A stretch of DNA of 59,203 nt from Planctomycetia bacterium (GTDB lineage Bacteria; Planctomycetota; Planctomycetia; Pirellulales; UBA1268): assembly GCA_014192425.1 (NCBI GenBank), contig BJHK01000024.1:1-59203 (forward strand), read 5' to 3'. Below the pieces are notes generated by a model. That model had not been told where the DNA came from. It saw only the letters and a program-made list of their open reading frames with translations, and searched no databases. The stretch's first letter is position 1; the number at the start of each line of letters is the position of its first letter. Positions 37,000 to 57,066 of this stretch are shown in pieces. Made by a program: the position numbers and the translations under genes.

Positions 37000-39900
37000 T
37001 TACCCGATGTTCTGTGCCGCCGTATCGAATCTCCCTTTCGTCCAAAGGGTGGCGGGAAGTTTCCGATCGGCTTTCGCTGCGTACTTGCCCAATGAGCCGA
37101 GCACTTCGTACAGTTCTTCTTCGGTGTGCCATTCGCGGCCTTTGTCGCCATAGACCATGGCGGTCGTTTTCTTTACTGCGTCAGTTATGGAGTCGCCGTC
37201 GATCTTCAGGGATTTCCAGTACTCTCCCTTGACGAAATCACAGTATCCGCCTGTGTTATGCACCCACACGCCATGCGGGCCGACGAAGTAGGTGTGGTAG
37301 TCCTGAACCGCGAAGTTGTACGTTGTGAAGGTTGACCCGACCGCGGCATCATCGCGGGCCAGCATGGCGACTACGGCCGTCGTTCCGTCTGCCAACGCGA
37401 GCGCATCGCCCGGTTGGAGTTCGGCCGCCGGAACAAACTCATTGCGATCAACGACGTAGAACGGGTGCTCGGCAGTGCAAACCAACAGCTCACTGGCGCC
37501 TGCGGGAGCACCCGGCAGGCAATACCACACGGAATAGAGGGCTGCCGGATGCGTGACAAAGGTCTCGAGCACAGGCTTGTAGCCCTGGTCGCCGGTGACC
37601 GGATCGCGGGACAGCACCCGATCGCCGGGCGTGACGTACTCGATAGCGATCAGCCCACGGTCGGTGACAACCGTCGTACCGGCCACGAAGCACATCTTGT
37701 TCGTGGCATCGGCGAGTAGGTCCACATATTCGAGGAACTTGCCGCCCGTTTGAAACACCTTGGCGATCACCGGGGAGGCATTGTCGCTGAACTTTCCGGC
37801 CTTCAAGGCGGCCTGAACCTTCTCAATCGCTCCCAGCTTGGCGAGTTTCGCCGTCCCTGCGGTGACAACAGCCTCTGCGACCTCATACAGGATTTGACCG
37901 ATCACCTCCCCCTTCTGATAGGGCGTGAGGTTGGCCATATGTTCGGCGAGTTCAAGCATGAGTTCGAGGGACACCTCGATCACGCTGGCGGCGACCTCGC
38001 CGAGCGCGTTCAGTTCCTCCAAGTCGCCCCGTGCAATTGCCTCGATCGTTTCTCTCTGGAACTCCATCACCTTCTGTGCAATACGGGCCATCGCCGTCAC
38101 CGTATCGGTGGCAATGCCGACGGCTTGAATGACGGCTTGCCGTTCGGCTTGGAACGTATCGCCCGTCTGCAGGCGGACCTGAATCGCGACGGGGTTGTAT
38201 TTCACTCCAGCTGTGACGCCGAACTTGAGAATGCCCCAAAGCCCTTCAACGGAGCCCCAGAGCCCGTGCCGGAAGAAGCCATCGACAACTCCGCCCAGGA
38301 AGAGCGGCGCATCGACCGGCTTGATGATCGCCGCTGCTCCGACTTTCTGGATGCGCGTGCTCAAAACGGCAGGGTGCAAGACGCTTCCCTCGCCGTCGTC
38401 CTTCATCGCTATGAACGCGTTTCCGGCGAGGTCGCGGGCGATTCCGCGCGGGCCGTCGTCTGTCTCGATGCTTTGGACAAAGTCTTCCATTTCGAGCGGG
38501 CCGAGCAGTTGGATCATGTACCGGTGCGCTTCGCCGGCGCCGGACTGGGCGAGTGTCACCGTCTCGCCGATCGCAAAACTGTAGCCCGAGAAATCCACGG
38601 CCTCGTAATCATCGACCGTTCGCTGTCGCGACGCGTTGAACGCCAACGAATCGTTGGACGACTCCGCCACCAGGAAGTCGAGCGCACTGATGTCGAGTGA
38701 CCTGCTGGTCACCACTGCCTCGACCGTATCGGGCAGCGCTGGGTCAAATACGTGATTCGGATCGATGACGATCACGAGGTCATCGGTATCGCCTCGAAAC
38801 GTCATGGAGGCATTGGCGGTTTCCGTCAAGACCGCCGACGCCGAGCCGTTGCCGCGCGTGATGATGGCGGTGATCGCGTCAGGCGCTCCCGGCGATGGCG
38901 CGGCGACGAACCCGAGCTGCACGGAAAGCTGCTCCGTGTAGGGGTAAGGCGATTGTGCCTGTACCTCAACCGCCGCCTCTGCGCTTCCGGTGTACCCAAA
39001 CACCCGGTCGGCGGCGACTACGGTCACACGGTTGTAGCCGGCTCCCAGAGCAACGTTGACGAACGCGTGTGAAAATGTGCCGGAGTAATCGTACGGCTTC
39101 AAGTACGAGTCGAACCGCTGCGACTTTGAAACGTTTGTCGTCACAGTGCCAAGGGGATCAACGGAGTCGCCAAGATAAACGGTGACTTCTTCGATCTTCC
39201 CCAGATCGCCAGGCGTGGAATCGCAAATGGCGGAGTCGACCGTGCCGGCGACTTGAACCGTGCCGAGGAGCGTGGTGTTGTCGGAACTGAGGTGCAGATT
39301 GCTCAGTGAAAGCGACGTGATCGACACGACGGGGCCGTCGTGCGAGACCGAGACGGTCGTTGTTGGTGTCAGGTAATTGTTCTCGTCGACGCTCACGAGG
39401 CGCCAATCGATCACGGTCGCCCTCACCGCGTCGGAAAGCGCCACGCTGCCTGTTCCACCGCCGCCGCCGAGGCGAAAGTCGACACCGATGCTTTGGTCGG
39501 CCACGTGACCACTTGCCCGCACGGCCTCCACATAAAGTTGCCACTCGTTCGGCCCAATGCGGGCCGCCTCGGGCAGGGAGGCGACCGTGTACGCCTTGCC
39601 GGAAGCGATGTAGTCTCCGCCCGCGTCGATCTCGGACTTACGACGGCTGGCTGGCCCATCTTTGCCCCAGAGTCGAAGGTGGCCTGCCGCAGGCTCGTAG
39701 CGATATCCATCTTCCGCCGTACCTGTCCGCACCACGGCTCTGGGGTCGGAAGCGTCGTAGCTGAAGACGAACTCCGCGTCTGGAATGTCGAGCGTGGAGG
39801 GAAGCCTGAGGATCACCGGTGCAAAGCCGGCACTGGCGCCGCTTCCTTGCTGACCGAAGATGTCATACCCGTCAGCGAAGTCCGGCACACGATCGCCATC

Positions 39901-41073
39901 GACATCGCCGGACGCAGCAAGAAGCACGCGGCCAGGCAGCCGCGTGTCATCGGTGCGCTCCTCAATAGGGTCATCGTCTTCACTGATCTTCCCGTCGTTG
40001 TTCGAGTCCACGTCCAGATCCACCGCCACCGCCGTGGCGCGTATCGTGTCGCGCGGTTGCGAAGTCGTGCTGCCACTGCCCGTGCCGACGTTGGGCGTCA
40101 GCGTGAAGGCGATGTCAGCCATGCTCGCACTCGGCGCGAAGGCTTCGATCCAGTAGGTCTGCACGGCACCGCCGGCGATCGTGGTGCCCGCTGCGGGAAT
40201 CGCCGTGCCGCCCGTCTGCGCCGTCCAGAGTCGGACCTTGTCCGCCCCTTGGGTGATGGCCAGCGTGGCCGACCGGCCCTGTGGCACGTCCACGATCATC
40301 TCCGCGCGGCTGCCCCCCACGGGCACGATCACGCCGGGCAGGTCGGTCTTCTCCTCGATCGGGTCGTCGTCTTCGGCGATCCTGCCGTCGTTGTTACTGT
40401 CGACGTCGAGATCGACTCCCCGCGGTTCCCAGACCACCTGGTCCTGCCTGGTGGGATGTTGCAGGACGTAGAGCGAGACGGCGGGGCCGCCGGCGCTGGG
40501 CGCGGGCGTGCCAGTACCGTTCAGCCACGACTCGGCGCGGGCGACGGCCGGAGACGCGGAAGCGCCGACTTGGAAGCTGCCGCTCTTCAGATTGCGCGAC
40601 GGGCCGTCGCTGATCAGCTCCCAGATTCCGAGCTGAAAGGCGGCGGCGTCGGTGACGCTGGTAAAGCCGGTGGTCTTGGGACCGTAACTCCGCCAGAAAT
40701 CGGCAACCAGGCCCGCATTGGCCAGGCCGCTGCTCGCGAGTGGCGCCCGCGTCGGAAACGTGTGCAGGCCGGGCGAGATCGACTGCCCGATTTCGACGCA
40801 GAACGAATTGAATCCCGACCAGGCGAACTGCCCCACGAAACTGGTGGGTACATTCGCGGGCCGCAATGGATGGATCACGGGAATGCGGTCAAACATCGAA
40901 ATGTTGTTCTCGAGCCTGGCCGTGGTGGAGAGCATGCAGCGGGATTCGAGCGGCTCGGCAGCCAGCTGAATGCGGCGGGAGGCAGAGGTCCGGCGGCGGA
41001 AGGAGTTGCCTGTGCGGGAGCGACGGAGCGAACGAGCACGGGTGAATACCGAACCGAAGCCGCGAGGCGACAT
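37000..41073 (-). CDS. Secreted polymorphic toxin with HINT domain, truncated by a nonsense codon
   Basis: The start ATG 41073 (MSPRGFGSVF) follows AGGAA; longer frames lack a site. The basic N-terminus leads into LEPLESRCMLS (near residue 45), the planctomycete N-terminal export-type motif. Then come adhesin-like beta repeats and at least two Asp/Asn-rich calcium-type motifs (DLDVDSNNDGRIAEDDD and DLDVDSNNDGKISEDDD). A HINT autocleavage domain spans about residues 1128-1272 (CFVAGTTVVTDRGLIAIEYV, CTAEHPFYV, ending VWVHN). The tip after it is 85 residues, then TAA. The HINT domain would release the tip. The tip appears incomplete: see the open remainder at 36670-36999. Putative immunity genes follow. 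If the stop is real, this allele should be non-toxic. Confidence 0.85.
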   Translation of the reverse strand: MSPRGFGSVFTRARSLRRSRTGNSFRRRTSASRRIQLAAEPLESRCMLSTTARLENNISMFDRIPVIHPLRPANVPTSFVGQFAWSGFNSFCVEIGQSISPGLHTFPTRAPLASSGLANAGLVADFWRSYGPKTTGFTSVTDAAAFQLGIWELISDGPSRNLKSGSFQVGASASPAVARAESWLNGTGTPAPSAGGPAVSLYVLQHPTRQDQVVWEPRGVDLDVDSNNDGRIAEDDDPIEEKTDLPGVIVPVGGSRAEMIVDVPQGRSATLAITQGADKVRLWTAQTGGTAIPAAGTTIAGGAVQTYWIEAFAPSASMADIAFTLTPNVGTGSGSTTSQPRDTIRATAVAVDLDVDSNNDGKISEDDDPIEERTDDTRLPGRVLLAASGDVDGDRVPDFADGYDIFGQQGSGASAGFAPVILRLPSTLDIPDAEFVFSYDASDPRAVVRTGTAEDGYRYEPAAGHLRLWGKDGPASRRKSEIDAGGDYIASGKAYTVASLPEAARIGPNEWQLYVEAVRASGHVADQSIGVDFRLGGGGGTGSVALSDAVRATVIDWRLVSVDENNYLTPTTTVSVSHDGPVVSITSLSLSNLHLSSDNTTLLGTVQVAGTVDSAICDSTPGDLGKIEEVTVYLGDSVDPLGTVTTNVSKSQRFDSYLKPYDYSGTFSHAFVNVALGAGYNRVTVVAADRVFGYTGSAEAAVEVQAQSPYPYTEQLSVQLGFVAAPSPGAPDAITAIITRGNGSASAVLTETANASMTFRGDTDDLVIVIDPNHVFDPALPDTVEAVVTSRSLDISALDFLVAESSNDSLAFNASRQRTVDDYEAVDFSGYSFAIGETVTLAQSGAGEAHRYMIQLLGPLEMEDFVQSIETDDGPRGIARDLAGNAFIAMKDDGEGSVLHPAVLSTRIQKVGAAAIIKPVDAPLFLGGVVDGFFRHGLWGSVEGLWGILKFGVTAGVKYNPVAIQVRLQTGDTFQAERQAVIQAVGIATDTVTAMARIAQKVMEFQRETIEAIARGDLEELNALGEVAASVIEVSLELMLELAEHMANLTPYQKGEVIGQILYEVAEAVVTAGTAKLAKLGAIEKVQAALKAGKFSDNASPVIAKVFQTGGKFLEYVDLLADATNKMCFVAGTTVVTDRGLIAIEYVTPGDRVLSRDPVTGDQGYKPVLETFVTHPAALYSVWYCLPGAPAGASELLVCTAEHPFYVVDRNEFVPAAELQPGDALALADGTTAVVAMLARDDAAVGSTFTTYNFAVQDYHTYFVGPHGVWVHNTGGYCDFVKGEYWKSLKIDGDSITDAVKKTTAMVYGDKGREWHTEEELYEVLGSLGKYAAKADRKLPATLWTKGRFDTAAQNIG

Positions 41074-46640: not shown

Positions 46641-47162
46641 CTATCTGCGCTGCAGAGCGTCGAGTTTCAGAGCGCGAATCACGTGCATCGGCAGGAATAG
46701 ATGCCGTGAGTCATCGAGCAGTGGGCGAAATCCGAATGCGAGATAGAACTTTTTGGCGGTTTCATCGAGAGCGTCGACCTCGACGGCCCGGATGCCGACC
46801 TGGGCCGAGATGTCCAGAGAGCGACGCAGGGCATCCACCAGCAACAGCGATCCAAGACCCTGCTTCTGGATGCTTTGATCGACTGCTAGCCGACCAAGCA
46901 GCACCACAGGGACATCAATTCGAGGAAGTGCCCTGGCCTCGACGTCGGGAAGTGCCTCGTAGACGACTCGATGCGTCGAAAGGGAGTAGTAGCCGAAAAC
47001 CCTCGCTTCACCGGGTCGGGTAGCCACGAACGTGCGGGAGAGATCTCGACGATCGAACTGGCCGGCACGATCCTTGAGCCAGTCGTCCAGCACCGGCCGG
47101 CCACAGGCGAAGGGCGAGCGATCATGCCCCCGCTCCAAGCGATGGATCGACCAGGCGGCCAT
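46641..47162 (-). CDS. GNAT-family toxin (TacT/AtaT type)
   Basis: The 173-residue acetyltransferase has the core motif LLGRLAVDQSIQKQGLGSLL and the C-terminal FYLAFGFRPLLDD. It has the N-terminal features of toxin members (FACGRPVLDDWLKDRAGQFD). Relatives acetylate aminoacyl-tRNA and stop translation. Its start overlaps the end of the DUF1778 gene by one base, forming a standard TacA-TacT-like pair. Confidence 0.9.
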   Translation of the reverse strand: MAAWSIHRLERGHDRSPFACGRPVLDDWLKDRAGQFDRRDLSRTFVATRPGEARVFGYYSLSTHRVVYEALPDVEARALPRIDVPVVLLGRLAVDQSIQKQGLGSLLLVDALRRSLDISAQVGIRAVEVDALDETAKKFYLAFGFRPLLDDSRHLFLPMHVIRALKLDALQRR

Positions 47163-47440
47163 CAGCCGACCTGTTTTCGGTATCGCTTCACCGCCTTGAC
47201 CAAGGCCTCGTTGGGCATGCTCGAAGAATCGTCAAGCATCGCCACGAACCGTTTTCTGTCCCGATCGCTCAACCGCGTGATCTGCTGATCACGCAGGATC
47301 CGGCGGGCCTTTTGCACGAGTGTGGCGACGGCAAAATCACTGATCGACTGCCCCAACTCCGCGGCGGCGTCTTCGATCGTCTTTTTGAGATCGCCACGCA
47401 GGCGAAAATTGATCCGTGCAGTGCTTTTTGCTGACGACAT
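47162..47440 (-). CDS. DUF1778 antitoxin (TacA type)
   Basis: The 92-residue protein begins with a ribbon-helix-helix domain (TARINFRLRGDLKKTIEDAA, SISDFAVATLVQKA) followed by an acidic-basic tail that would bind the toxin. It should both neutralise the GNAT toxin and repress the operon. Confidence 0.9.
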   Translation of the reverse strand: MSSAKSTARINFRLRGDLKKTIEDAAAELGQSISDFAVATLVQKARRILRDQQITRLSDRDRKRFVAMLDDSSSMPNEALVKAVKRYRKQVG

Positions 47441-49291: not shown

Positions 49292-49579
49292 ATGACGACG
49301 AGACGACGGAAGAAGCACCGTCCCGAGGAGATCGTTGCGAAGCTGCGTGATGCGGAAGCGATGCTGAACGCAGGTAAGGATCTTGCGGCGGTGCTGCAGG
49401 CGTTGGAGGTCAGCGAGTCGACGTTCGATCGCTGGCGAGCCCAGTACGGCGGGATGAAGTGTGAGGAAGCCAAGAAGCTGAAGCAGCTTGAGGATGAGAA
49501 CAAGCGGCTGAAGACCTTGGTGGCGGATCTGTCCCTCGACAACCAGATGCTCAAGCATCTCTCGGAGGGAAACTGGTAA
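49292..49579 (+). CDS. IS3-family transposase orfA
   Basis: The 95-residue protein is a complete orfA: a basic helix-turn-helix domain (HRPEEIVAKLRDAEAMLNAG, VSESTFDRWRAQYGG) and a leucine-zipper coiled coil (KLKQLEDENKRLKTLVADLS). It binds the IS ends. It stands directly before the orfB remnant. Confidence 0.93.
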   Translation: MTTRRRKKHRPEEIVAKLRDAEAMLNAGKDLAAVLQALEVSESTFDRWRAQYGGMKCEEAKKLKQLEDENKRLKTLVADLSLDNQMLKHLSEGNW

Positions 49580-49893
49580 GCCCTTCCCGGAAGCGAGCGG
49601 CAGTCGCGGAACTCCAGCGGGAGTTCCGCGTTTCCGAGCGAAGGGCTTGCAAGGTGGTTGGCCAGCCGCGGAGCAGTCAGCGTTTCGAGGGTAATCCCCG
49701 GACGGACGAAGCACCGCTGGTGAAGCGGATGCTTCAGCTGTCACGGGCGAAGCCGCGGTATGGGTATCGACGGATCGGATGGCTTCTTCGGAGCGAGGGC
49801 TGGCATGTTGGCTTGTCGCGTGTGTTTCGGTTGTGGCAGCGGGAAGGCCTGAAAGTGCCTGTAAAGAAGCGGATAAAGCGTCGCCTCGGCTCG
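49577..49893 (+). pseudogene. IS3-family transposase orfB, N-terminal fragment
   Basis: After orfA the frame gives AVAELQREFRVSERRACKVV and PLVKRMLQLSRAKPRYGYRR, then IGWLLRSEGW and VPVKKRIKRRLGS. This is the N-terminal domain of orfB; the DDE integrase core is missing because the sequence joins a minus-strand zinc-ribbon gene at about 49893. The element cannot transpose on its own. Confidence 0.85.
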
Positions 49894-50072
49894 ATGCCCG
49901 TGGCTTTGCAGCACGGGCATTTCAGGGTCCTCGCCTGCACGTTCGCCGACACAGCCTGGCGGCATTTCCGGCACAGGCACGGCGCCAGCCATGTGCCCCG
50001 GGGGGCACGCATGCCGACGCCCACTGACAGGCTTTTGGCCGCGTAGCCGCAGGAACAACGACCAGTGACCAT
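49893..50072 (-). pseudogene. N-terminal fragment of a zinc-ribbon protein
   Basis: The frame from ATG 50072 reads MVTGRCSCGYAAKSLSVGVG, then CLCRKCRQAVSANV and LKCPCCKATGIEP, with three CxC/CxxC groups. It then runs into the orfB fragment, so its C-terminal half is lost. Function unknown. Confidence 0.55.
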
Positions 50073-52008: not shown

Positions 52009-55000
52009 ATGGACGTCTTTCGGCTGCTGCTCTGTGTCGGGCTCGGACTGCTTCTGTGGAAGGCGCAGGTTCGCGGCGTTCGGCCGGTCCGGGAATTTTT
52101 CCTGTGGGGCGTGGACTACCCGTTCCAGTTCCTGATCACCGTCGTGCTCATCCTCGTGATCTGGGGTGGTCTCGGGGGATCATTCGGGCTCCAAGGGCTT
52201 TTCCTCGACGAGGATCCGCTCACCCAAGTGCTCCTGGGAGGCACGGTGATGCTGCTCTTCGCCGCGATCGTCGTGCACTATGTTGCGCTCGGCACGTCGC
52301 GCCGCGGCTGGTGGGCATCGCTGCACGGGCTCACCGGCGTGCTCCGCGGCCTGGAGGCCGTGTCCGACCCGCGGCGTCCCGTGCACTCGGCGCTTGCCAA
52401 CGGGTTTCTCGAGCAACTCACCGCGACGGACATCGAGGCGATCGACATCGTCGCCCGACGTGAGGAAGCCGATCCTGGAGGGCGGCATCTCCCACGCACG
52501 GCTCTCGATCTCGAACTCCGCGACGCGATCGGGAGCACTCCCTTTCGGATGCTCGTCGCGCCGGCGATCTTCCTCGTGAAAGGAATCGGTCTCGTATTTC
52601 TCGTGGGGATCGTTCCGGTCGTTTTGCTGCCGCTCGTACATCGCGACACCCCTGCGATCTTCGAGAGGGTCCCGTGGCTCGTGGGCGTGTGCCTCGGGTA
52701 CATCATCGGGCTCATGCTCTTCTGCTGGACAACCCGCTGGCTCGGCGAAGCAGCCGGCTGGAACCGGCCCGATGGCGTCGCGGACGATTCCAAAGCCCCT
52801 CAGCACGAGGCCATCCTTGCCATCCTTCGCCGGTGGGAAGCCGAACGGGGCATTGCCGCGGCAACGGCAACGCTTCCACCACAGGCCAGGCCCTCGCCTC
52901 CCCCCACCTGGCTCGTGGTACTGACGTGGTTTTTTCTCGTTCATTCAGCCGTCACTCTCCTGCTGCCGGAGTCGCTGACAGCGCATTGGATCGACTGGCC
53001 CGAGCGCAATCTTGCCATCGAGGACGCGGCCGGCGGGCCAGCGCGATCGATGCTCACCACGAATTTTCCATGGCTGCCCGCAGGCGTTCTTGCGGCCGAA
53101 GGAATCGTGGCCGTTCTGCTTGCCAGCCTGCAACGTCGGGTCGCCCATTCAGCCGTGGCTCACGCTCGCACTCCCGCCTGGCGTCACGTTCTTGCCGCAG
53201 CCATCTCCACGATGGTGCATCTGCTTCGGGCCCCATGGCTCCAGCGACTGGCAATTGTCCTCGCGGCGGCGATCGCCCTCGCCTCGCTTGGCGTGACGCT
53301 CGTTCTCCGGCCCGAGGCGACCCACTCAGCCTGGGTCGGCCTGCGTGGGTACGCCTCGCTCGGTGCCATCCTTGTCACCTGGCTTGGCATCTTCTGGCTT
53401 GCCACCCACGCGGCGATCGGCGGAGGCGCCCGCACACCACTCGAACAGCGGGCCGCCATCGTCGGCCTCGCAGGACTCACCGTCCTGCATGTGCTCGGCG
53501 CAGCTCCACTGATCATCGCGCCGCTGGCGGCCACCGGGGCCATCCTCTCCGGATCGCGAACGCTCTCGAGCCTCTGGCAAGGATCACCGCCGGCCTGGCT
53601 GCGCCCGGGCTGGGCAATCGTGCTGGCCGTCATCGCGGCAGTGTCCCTGGTTCTTGCCTCACAGTCCGATGGGATGCATGTCGCCGCCGGAGTCTGGCTC
53701 GGCCTGGCAACCATATTCCTCGGATCGACTTCCCTCGCCGACGTTGCCATCCACCAGCCGATTCTTCTCTACCCGCTCACGGTGGTGCTCGGGTATGTAG
53801 GCTTCGCGATTCCTTATGCCACACTCAGCGAGCGGTGGCTTTCCGCGCTCCCGGCAGCCGGCTCGATCGCCTGCGTGACAGCGCTGTTGGCGGCCGCCTA
53901 CGCGATCCTCGCCCATGCCCGCCCCCGCAGCGCCTTCTTGACCGTCGCAGCCGTCCTCGGTGTGACGGTCCTCGTCAACGGTACGGCGCTCTTTGTCGCG
54001 CCCAACGAGTTCAAGGGCATGTTCCCCAACATGGAGGCCTACTACAGGCTGCCGGTGTACCTCGACTCGCGCGACTATTTTCGAGACACCACGCCATCAA
54101 CAGCCCAGCTTCGCAATCGCGCCGTCACCGAGGATTTCGATCGCATGGCCCGGCAGGGCTTCAGCGAGCGTCTGGCCACCGTCTACTTCACCGTCCAGCC
54201 GCTCCAACGGCGCGCCGACGGCAACCATGTGGTCGTTGTCGATGTCGAAGATCCGCGGAATCGTCTGCGCGCCGTGGCGGGTGATGTGGTCGGCCTGGCA
54301 GCCGAAGAATGGTTCACGATTCGTCTTGATGGCGACGACTGCATCGCTCTCGCGGAAGAGCCGTTCTACCGACGGATCTACCGGCTCTTCGGGTACGACA
54401 GTCTCCACATGATCCGTAACGGCATCATCCGCGGCGCGAGGCGGCGGCTCGTGCGCGGCGATGACGACCGGGCGAGGCGCGGCAACGCCACGACGTACAC
54501 GTTTCTCTCCGATGGTGAGGGAACGCTCGGCGAACCCGCTCCATCAGGAACACGGACCGACACCAACGTGCTCGGCCTTCGCCTCCACGGCCTCGCCGAC
54601 GAGTACCGATCGCTCAAGGCCGAATACGCGCTTATCGGCATGAATTGGCGGGGGCGGGTGGCCGAGGTGCGACACGAGTCACATGCCGACATGTATCGCG
54701 TCGAGTTCACGCTCCCTGCCGGCTCCGAGCCGCTTGATGCGGCACAGCTCCGCACGATGCAGTCGTGGATGGAGCGGTGCCATCTCGACACGCTCCGCTT
54801 GACCGCGTCGGTGCCAGAGCGACTCGCGGTTGCGGGCACGCCGAGTGAGCGGCCGGGTGATTGCCTCGTTCTGGAGGACGCCCGCACCGACGCGCCGGTT
54901 CCCGTGGGTGTGTTCCTTGCCCAAAGCTACGACCACGATGCCTACGATCCCGCCTTCGAGCCATTCTGGACGACTCCCGAGGCGATCCGGCGGACAGTCG

Positions 55001-57066
55001 CCGCGACGCCTGCCTCCGCGCCGCTGCCAGTCATGCCGCCCGACGATGCCGGTTCCACCGCAGGCTTCACGTTTCGCCCCGCGCACGATCGTGGTCTGTT
55101 TGCGGGTCCGAAGGATGCCATCCAGCGCCTCGAAGCCGCGATCGCGAATCGGTCTGGCGAGCCTGTCACCGTCGCCCTTTACAACGCAGGCCGGCTGCGA
55201 TCGGGCGATCGCCTGATCCTCACCTGGAACGGTCGCCACGGTACCGCCAGCGGTCCCGACCTCGCCCGGGCGACGGTCTGTGAGCTGGGGGCGCTGGATG
55301 TGCCGCCTCCCTTCGGCAGGCCATCAACCGCTCCTGCGAAACCACTGCCGCCCGGCGCGATGTGGGCTCGCATAAGGCCGGTGGGGCAGGCGACGGGGGG
55401 GGCAGGATCGTCCCCGCAAGAAAGCCCGAATGCAGACACCAGCACCATCGTGGTGGGTCAGTGGCAGAACCTCCAACTCCTCAACAACGCTGAGGTGCTG
55501 TTCGCCTGGAAGAATCTCGTGGGGCCACGGTGGAAGAACAGAAAGCCGAAGCTCGTGATCGTGACCGTGAGTGGCGGAGGCATTCGCGCGAGCGTGTGGA
55601 CGAGCGTGGTACTCCGCAAACTCGAAGCGACGCTGGGATCCGATTTTCCGTATCACATCCGCTTGGTCACGGGCGCTTCCGGGGGCATGGTGGCGGGGTC
55701 GTATTACGTCGCGTCGCTGCGACCGCCTCCGCCCGAGGTGCTGGCCGGCGGCAGCGCATCCTTTGAAGATCTGCATGGCGTATCGATCGGCAATTTCGTC
55801 GACCGCATGGCCCTCGATCAGCTCGATGCCGTCGCCGGGCGGATGCTGTTTGCCGATCTTCCAGCAACGCTCAATCCGTTCGTCCGCCGCGGCGACCGCG
55901 GCCGCACCCTCGAGGAAACATGGATCCGCTGGACCGGCGGCGACGCGAGCCCGCTGGGCCGGCCGATCCAGTCGTATGCGGCCGACGAGCGGATCGGCTG
56001 GCGACCTTCGCTCGTCTACACGCCGATGATGGTGGAGGATGGGCGGCGCTTGCTCATCAGCAATCTCGACATGGCCTTTGCCACACGTAATGTCGGCGGC
56101 CTGTTGCTCGAACCGTCGTCCCGCAAGATCGAACGCCCCGCGATCCAGGGTGGCGATTTCGATCAGAGCATCCACGAGGAAGACGAGGTCTTTTCGCTTT
56201 CGGCCGTCGAGTGTTTCCGACTCTTTCCCCGCGCTGGCGACTTTCAGATGACGACTGCGATCCGCATGAGTGCGTCGTTTCCTTGGGTATCGCCGGCTTG
56301 CAGTCTGCCCACGCTGCCGCCGCGGCGGGTGGTCGATGCAGGCTACTACGACAACTACGGCATCAACCTGTCGGCACTATGGCTCTCGAAGATGAGTCAG
56401 TGGCTGCAGGAGAACACGTCGGGTGTGCTGGTCGTGCAGATCCGCGACAAAGTGAGTCAGGGAGCGCGCACCGAGGTCGACTTTGATCGTCTCTCGGGCG
56501 ACGATTCCCTGCTCGACCGCCTGGTGTGGAACGGCGGGAGCAAGCTCCTGCAGCCTGGACTCCAGGCGCTGACGACGCCGCTCGTGGGATTGACGAACGC
56601 CCGGCAATGGACGATGGCCTTCCGCAACGACGAGCAGGTCGATCTGCAGGATCTCCTCTTCGACGAGTTGAGTGGCCAGGAGTTTTTCCGGACGGTCGTC
56701 TTTGAATGCCCAGTGGACGTGTCGCTCAATTGGCGGCTCACGGCGAGCGAAAAGGCGATCCTTGTCGGTGGTTTCGGGAGGCCGAACGCCGCTCCCGAAG
56801 GCGAGCTGGAGCGGGTGAAGGATTTTCTGACGGGCCGCGATTCGTACGAGTTTCACAAGTGGCGGCTCGAACACCGGAACCTCCCGGAGTTTCGCCGCGA
56901 GCTCAAGGCCCGGTATGACGAGCAGCTTGCGGCGCTCGGTGTCACGGCAACCGACCGGATCTCGCTCGAGGAGAGCCAAAGCCTCTACGAGAACGTATTG
57001 AAGAACCTCAAGCGCCTGGAACTGCTTGCCGATTGGTGGCATGCCGGCCGCGTCCCAGCACCGTGA
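52009..57066 (+). CDS. Giant multi-pass membrane protein with C-terminal patatin lipase domain
   Basis: The 1685-residue protein starts at ATG 52009 behind GGTAGG. Residues 1-660 hold a dozen or so hydrophobic helices (first ones: LLLCVGLGLLLW, FLITVVLILVIWGG, VMLLFAAIVVHYVAL). A long soluble part follows (about 680-1180). The patatin domain runs about 1180-1640, with the oxyanion loop SGGGIRAS near 1188, the nucleophile Ser1224 in VTGASGGMVAGS, and the partner Asp1443 in VVDAGYYDNYGIN. The dyad is complete, so acyl hydrolase activity is expected. Position in the membrane and control by the N-terminal part are inference. I know no standard family with this layout, and the neighbours give no clue. 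Confidence 0.85.
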   Translation: MDVFRLLLCVGLGLLLWKAQVRGVRPVREFFLWGVDYPFQFLITVVLILVIWGGLGGSFGLQGLFLDEDPLTQVLLGGTVMLLFAAIVVHYVALGTSRRGWWASLHGLTGVLRGLEAVSDPRRPVHSALANGFLEQLTATDIEAIDIVARREEADPGGRHLPRTALDLELRDAIGSTPFRMLVAPAIFLVKGIGLVFLVGIVPVVLLPLVHRDTPAIFERVPWLVGVCLGYIIGLMLFCWTTRWLGEAAGWNRPDGVADDSKAPQHEAILAILRRWEAERGIAAATATLPPQARPSPPPTWLVVLTWFFLVHSAVTLLLPESLTAHWIDWPERNLAIEDAAGGPARSMLTTNFPWLPAGVLAAEGIVAVLLASLQRRVAHSAVAHARTPAWRHVLAAAISTMVHLLRAPWLQRLAIVLAAAIALASLGVTLVLRPEATHSAWVGLRGYASLGAILVTWLGIFWLATHAAIGGGARTPLEQRAAIVGLAGLTVLHVLGAAPLIIAPLAATGAILSGSRTLSSLWQGSPPAWLRPGWAIVLAVIAAVSLVLASQSDGMHVAAGVWLGLATIFLGSTSLADVAIHQPILLYPLTVVLGYVGFAIPYATLSERWLSALPAAGSIACVTALLAAAYAILAHARPRSAFLTVAAVLGVTVLVNGTALFVAPNEFKGMFPNMEAYYRLPVYLDSRDYFRDTTPSTAQLRNRAVTEDFDRMARQGFSERLATVYFTVQPLQRRADGNHVVVVDVEDPRNRLRAVAGDVVGLAAEEWFTIRLDGDDCIALAEEPFYRRIYRLFGYDSLHMIRNGIIRGARRRLVRGDDDRARRGNATTYTFLSDGEGTLGEPAPSGTRTDTNVLGLRLHGLADEYRSLKAEYALIGMNWRGRVAEVRHESHADMYRVEFTLPAGSEPLDAAQLRTMQSWMERCHLDTLRLTASVPERLAVAGTPSERPGDCLVLEDARTDAPVPVGVFLAQSYDHDAYDPAFEPFWTTPEAIRRTVAATPASAPLPVMPPDDAGSTAGFTFRPAHDRGLFAGPKDAIQRLEAAIANRSGEPVTVALYNAGRLRSGDRLILTWNGRHGTASGPDLARATVCELGALDVPPPFGRPSTAPAKPLPPGAMWARIRPVGQATGGAGSSPQESPNADTSTIVVGQWQNLQLLNNAEVLFAWKNLVGPRWKNRKPKLVIVTVSGGGIRASVWTSVVLRKLEATLGSDFPYHIRLVTGASGGMVAGSYYVASLRPPPPEVLAGGSASFEDLHGVSIGNFVDRMALDQLDAVAGRMLFADLPATLNPFVRRGDRGRTLEETWIRWTGGDASPLGRPIQSYAADERIGWRPSLVYTPMMVEDGRRLLISNLDMAFATRNVGGLLLEPSSRKIERPAIQGGDFDQSIHEEDEVFSLSAVECFRLFPRAGDFQMTTAIRMSASFPWVSPACSLPTLPPRRVVDAGYYDNYGINLSALWLSKMSQWLQENTSGVLVVQIRDKVSQGARTEVDFDRLSGDDSLLDRLVWNGGSKLLQPGLQALTTPLVGLTNARQWTMAFRNDEQVDLQDLLFDELSGQEFFRTVVFECPVDVSLNWRLTASEKAILVGGFGRPNAAPEGELERVKDFLTGRDSYEFHKWRLEHRNLPEFRRELKARYDEQLAALGVTATDRISLEESQSLYENVLKNLKRLELLADWWHAGRVPAP

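Follow-up and report, generated by a model that had tools for sequence, protein, structure and literature searches.

The gene at positions 52009–57066 (+ strand, ATG start) of the window, meaning here the whole stretch of 59,203 nucleotides of planctomycete DNA that was analysed, encodes a multi-pass membrane protein of 1685 residues with a C-terminal patatin domain. Membrane patatins are common in planctomycetes, and this protein is an enlarged form of them that is restricted to certain lineages. The reading favoured here, to which we give about an even chance of being right, is that of a membrane-anchored acyl hydrolase (or acyl transferase) with a patatin/cPLA2 fold that acts in the planctomycete envelope. 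The open reading frame is a real gene and not a chance one, because both near and distant homologues align over its full length and the dN/dS ratio is about 0.06–0.35 in every region of the protein. Its length and its patatin ending, as described by the first-pass annotation of this DNA, are thus borne out.

Four regions can be distinguished along the chain. The N-terminal membrane domain (residues 1–664, positions 52009–54000) has 14 to 16 helices according to hydropathy, AlphaFold2 and counts based on the positive-inside rule. It is followed by a connector that is predicted to be beta-rich and that is specific to the long forms of the family (residues 665–1178, 54001–55542), by the patatin catalytic core (residues 1179–1500, 55543–56508), and by a C-terminal extension (residues 1501–1685, 56509–57063) whose alignment with five homologues from the same family gives 72–77% identity to the window protein. 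All four are read from the + strand. Scans for promoters, terminators and repeats returned nothing useful.

The patatin domain

The catalytic core carries the motifs of its family. The glycine-rich oxyanion-hole motif SGGGIR spans residues 1188–1193 (55570–55587), with GGGIR at 1189–1193. The nucleophile elbow GASGG begins at residue 1222 (55672–55686) and contains Ser1224, whose codon lies at 55678–55680, while DAGYYDN begins at Asp1443 (56335–56337), the other half of the dyad. Both SGGGIR and GASGG, as well as Asp1443, are invariant in the 11 long proteins compared, with DAG reading DAA in some of them, so that the complete Ser-Asp dyad proposed earlier stands. When the whole window protein is compared with Pfam PF01734, it scores 27.1 bits, just below the cut-off of 27.7, but the patatin domain alone reaches 29.3 bits against the same cut-off, and all 13 aligned members match. 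By profile and motifs, the protein belongs to the patatin-like phospholipases, and lipid acyl hydrolase activity is predicted for it. No other PF01734 match was found in the window's genome, which is 95.9% complete.

A sequence search for relatives of solved structure returned none that was credible. The second of two AlphaFold2 models, covering residues 690–1590, has a mean pLDDT of 58, and the catalytic part is poorly modelled (mostly below 65). Despite this, the top fold matches of the catalytic part stand out, and all have the patatin/cPLA2 fold. The best is human GIVD cPLA2 (Z 11.2 over 244 residues, with 11% identity), followed by iPLA2-beta (Z 8.4), CapE (8.4), PlpD (7.9) and CapV (7.7), and then by patatin (7.4) and ExoU (6.8). 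The window protein has the family match, the dyad and the fold in common with potato patatin, PlpD and ExoU. However, these proteins are soluble, secreted or injected, whereas the window protein, with its 1685 residues, is integral to the membrane. As for cPLA2, its recruitment to membranes occurs via a C2 domain or lipidation; Pfam finds no C2 domain in the window protein.

Relatives, distribution and selection

Among 60 related genomes, full-length or near full-length relatives were found in four besides the window's own. Nine of the 72 genomes from the window's family have any match: eight carry the long form, whole or in part, and the ninth has only a weak match in a separate and shorter protein. 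A scan of species genomes added five further carriers, namely Aquisphaera insulae, Singulisphaera acidiphila DSM 18658, with its homologue on NC_019892 (locus L033), an Isosphaeraceae MAG, a Singulisphaera MAG and a bacterial MAG. Ten relatives, from ten other genomes, align over the full length with 33–66% identity to the window protein; the five full-length homologues from its own family (including L025) show 62–66%, and the five others are more distant. In the Singulisphaera MAG, a second and shorter multi-pass patatin of 816 residues is encoded directly downstream of the long form (L029, 13706–16156, + strand).

Conservation is unevenly distributed along the protein. Identity to the window protein is 58–87% in the patatin core, 24–56% in the membrane domain and 24–59% in the connector. 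The dN/dS ratios (NG86, four pairs) are 0.06–0.13 for the core and 0.19–0.35 for the membrane domain and connector, these values being rough since synonymous distances approach or exceed 1. The whole protein is under purifying selection, which is strongest in the patatin part, and the slow evolution of this part is as for a working enzyme.

When the aligned patatin domains were used as query, 50 of the 198 Planctomycetia genomes gave a match, and the rest of the phylum gave weak and short matches to this domain only. Most of the proteins from the class are about 790–1040 residues long, and the sampled ones have 7–11 predicted helices followed by a patatin domain with GASGG. The window protein is a multi-pass patatin of this kind, with several N-terminal helices and a C-terminal patatin domain of the same subgroup; GASGG, DxGY and the lack of conserved neighbours are common to both. 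The shorter proteins differ by their lower number of helices and by a short linker in place of the connector of about 515 residues. They are also separated from the long forms in the domain tree (support 81/99), in which the six proteins of the window's family constitute a single clade (100/98) within the long group. Long forms, of 1592–1800 residues, were seen in just two families of the class, the window's and that of the Isosphaeraceae records.

Shorter relatives with membrane helices are also found in cyanobacteria and proteobacteria. A plasmid-borne protein of 773 residues from Planktothrix, with about 8–9 helices, has the same layout, as does one of 940 residues from Rhizobium, with about 11 helices before the GGG motif. 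The latter is encoded by plasmid pRlX4 of Rhizobium ruizarguesonis (L111, 1–4449, + strand), where it is annotated as hypothetical and lies downstream of a gene for a caspase family protein. The layout is thus widespread, and size is the distinctive point of the window protein. The first-pass annotation had suggested looking for the same architecture across planctomycetes, and long forms in ten other genomes as well as many shorter proteins were indeed recovered. Its premise of soluble or secreted proteins as the rule among bacterial patatins does not hold for this group, in which the sampled planctomycete relatives have 7–17 predicted helices ahead of the domain. Since multi-pass patatins are common in Planctomycetia, there is nothing unusual in the fusion as such. 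A quarter of the sampled genomes of the class carry a domain match, yet no paper on multi-pass patatins was found in the open-access literature searched.

Membrane domain, topology and connector

Hydropathy indicates 14–15 membrane segments before residue 665. The first AlphaFold2 model (residues 1–699, alignment of 11 sequences) has a mean pLDDT of 74, and 16 membrane helices can be read from its helix list. The ambiguity lies in residues 477–520, which form either one helix or two; the model gives two, with a pLDDT mostly of about 88–94, as over residues 481–600 in general. The membrane region described by the first-pass annotation is therefore confirmed, its count of about a dozen helices being slightly low.

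Several observations bear on the side of the membrane on which the enzyme lies. With the 16 modelled helices, lysine and arginine residues in the inferred outside and inside loops of the window protein are in a ratio of 6:28, and the bias runs in the same direction in all 11 long proteins, placing both ends outside. A dynamic-programming topology computed without the model, in which long loops are scored at their flanks, gave a C-terminus outside in 8 of 8 long forms and in 10 of 12 short forms, the margins being small throughout (about 1–11 units of an ad hoc score). By contrast, a cruder scoring that counted long loops whole preferred 14 helices with the enzyme inside. One relative (L030, 6332–11110, + strand) lacks about 100 residues after position 465 or so, corresponding to helices 10–13, with its reading frame kept; as this is an even number of helices, the gap was counted toward an exocytoplasmic enzyme. 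From the even helix count and the positive loops inside, the connector and the enzyme are likely to be on the outer (periplasmic) face. If this topology holds, two larger loops, at residues about 93–185 and 244–299, face the cytoplasm.

Residues 1–664 have no match to a transporter or permease profile of Pfam or NCBIfam at E values up to 0.1, and residues 1–1178 match no known permease or sensor family in Pfam, NCBIfam or PHROGs. Compared with the PDB, the fold of the membrane domain gave no Foldseek match with E below 0.001 (best E 0.026, TM-score 0.1), and all structural alignments were below Z 6.5. This lack of a convincing fold match speaks neither for a new fold nor for a known one. A known permease family in a conserved housekeeping context, which the first-pass annotation had named as the finding that would overturn its reading, was thus not encountered.

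The connector, of about 515 residues, contains no hydrophobic segment according to hydropathy, in agreement with the soluble connector of some 500 residues described initially. AlphaFold2 models it in blocks with a pLDDT of 70–89 and many strands, from which its beta-rich character is predicted. Its structural matches, at Z about 6, are with UPF1, V-ATPase and translation-factor-like beta-barrels, but this likeness may be just a common arrangement. A search of the 198 Planctomycetia genomes found the connector in six, each time inside a long form and never as an independent domain.

A divergent exported pair in the window's family

In four genomes of the family (G001, G008, G028 and G065), a divergent gene pair lies 143–255 bp from the gene of the giant patatin. 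It was located at L009 8082–11431 (- strand), L012 316–3665 (- strand), L089 2–2946 (+ strand) and L013 2904–6077 (- strand), the last of these being the fusion of both genes, found in G008, that encodes a single protein of 1057 residues. The pair consists of a protein of about 620 residues without a family match and of a patatin-like protein of about 480 residues. Wherever the start is visible, both open with a stretch resembling a signal peptide (read by eye), and both are predicted to be exported. The patatin-like partner keeps a GxSxG motif (GNSSG) and reads YYGGY at the site of the Asp motif. Two of its sequences fall just short of the PF01734 cut-off (E about 7e-6), and others match more weakly. 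Because a profile comparison with the domain of the giant patatin was insignificant, the label of patatin-like rests on these sub-cut-off matches and on the motifs.

The partner gene is present in 5 of the 72 family genomes, in one of them as a fragment on another contig. All five are among the eight carriers of the long form, with none in the 64 other genomes, in raw counts uncorrected for kinship between genomes. The window genome, G012 and G064 lack the partner, and the window genome would have lost the pair or never had it. Three other genomes of the order carry the partner gene, and none of them matched in the connector search. In two of these three, the partner gene has caspase-like (Peptidase_C14) genes next to it, of which some show PDZ matches (L100 4493–11416 and L102 8358–10794); the match to the partner in L102 contains one in-frame TAA. 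The link between the partner and the giant patatin is thus not obligatory, since the pair occurs without the giant patatin elsewhere in the order. In part of the window's family, the giant patatin probably works together with this divergent exported pair.

Gene neighbourhood

In the window, the giant patatin gene stands alone. According to gene calls made with a simple codon-usage script, it is preceded by a gene for a LuxR-type response regulator, by two short genes without family match, which look by eye like a toxin-antitoxin unit, and by transposase fragments, and it is followed by a quinone-oxidoreductase-like gene. The neighbours scanned in the window yielded neither a cyclase (CD-NTase) nor a nucleotide sensor nor any further defence gene. 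Among 24 relatives outside the window's family there is no recurrent informative neighbour and no operon conserved across the class, and the surroundings of the planctomycete multi-pass patatins showed no caspase-like motif pair.

Possible functions

For the envelope acyl hydrolase favoured here, the membrane domain would anchor the enzyme in the inner membrane and might also offer lipid to the patatin domain or hand it over, the connector would space or position the enzyme, and fatty acyl chains would be released (or transferred) from lipids of the cell's own envelope, in remodelling or turnover. The gene is patchy, only 9 of the 72 family genomes having a match of any kind, which suits an accessory role more than that of a core remodelling enzyme. 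Planctomycetes have an unusual and flexible envelope, and an acyl hydrolase that is integral to the membrane and faces the periplasm would, if confirmed, be a direct candidate for its remodelling. The homologues of S. acidiphila and A. insulae lie in sequenced, named strains, so that this can be tested.

A first alternative, which we consider unlikely, is a lipid transporter fused to a lipase, the 16-helix part moving a (lyso)lipid or a precursor across the membrane to the patatin domain. Transporter-enzyme fusions are known for lysophospholipid recycling (LplT-Aas), and the large membrane domain does have conserved Gly, Pro and Trp positions among the long proteins. However, this domain matches no Pfam transporter family and gave no PDB fold match within the thresholds stated above, L030 has lost a stretch with four helices, and the shorter forms have 7–11 helices only.

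It is more doubtful that the protein is a membrane stress sensor, in which the helices would sense a ligand, tension or lipid packing and the connector would relay the signal, so that the patatin is switched on for repair and not for death. The long conserved stretch between membrane and enzyme, limited to the long architecture among the 198 genomes, would suit such a relay, but residues 1–1178 contain no known sensor domain and most relatives carry the same class of enzyme behind short linkers. The same degree of doubt applies to a single-chain envelope machine, in which a 16-helix domain with a fold absent from the PDB would extract or flip a lipid, a periplasmic beta-barrel connector would hand it on, an exocytoplasmic patatin would deacylate it, and the exported Asp-less patatin-like protein would assist in some strains.

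The weakest case is that of a defence effector, whose membrane part or connector would sense infection and whose patatin would degrade the cell's own membrane, thereby stopping phage spread. Patatin-fold lipases are indeed effectors of CBASS (CapV and CapE, chains of both of which appear in the fold search), the weak PADLOC matches are to defence phospholipases, the gene is patchy, the window region contains toxin-antitoxin-like pairs and transposase pieces, and a caspase-family gene precedes that of the Rhizobium plasmid relative. However, the window protein adds a membrane domain to the fold of CapV and CapE and has no cyclase neighbour, and its PADLOC matches are fragmentary, spanning about 50 of 331 residues (E 0.0002 and 0.07). 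The CBASS lipase model NF041079 gives 17.8 bits over its residues 3–48 of 317, against a cut-off of 200, which does not place the protein in CBASS. In addition, there is neither an adjacent defence gene nor a recurrent neighbour, caspase-like motifs are not seen near the planctomycete proteins, the sequence is conserved over the whole class, and the catalytic domain is exocytoplasmic by prediction. A defence role is thus improbable, and cleavage of the cell's own envelope lipids is more likely than killing of the cell. The first-pass annotation had proposed a membrane sensor that triggers a phospholipase, in membrane remodelling or in a self-damaging response; the former is compatible with the data, whereas the latter finds no support in them.

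Other elements of the window

The transposase pieces (HTH_Tnp_1 and HTH_21, 49292–50046, + strand) lie some 2 kb before the giant patatin gene and apparently belong to a broken insertion sequence. Further upstream, a TacA-like antitoxin gene (PF08681) beside a GNAT acetyltransferase gene (46641–47440, - strand) probably constitutes a toxin-antitoxin pair. Finally, a protein of 1311 residues encoded at 37000–40935 (- strand) carries, towards the C-terminus, a pretoxin HINT domain (PF07591, E 7e-24).
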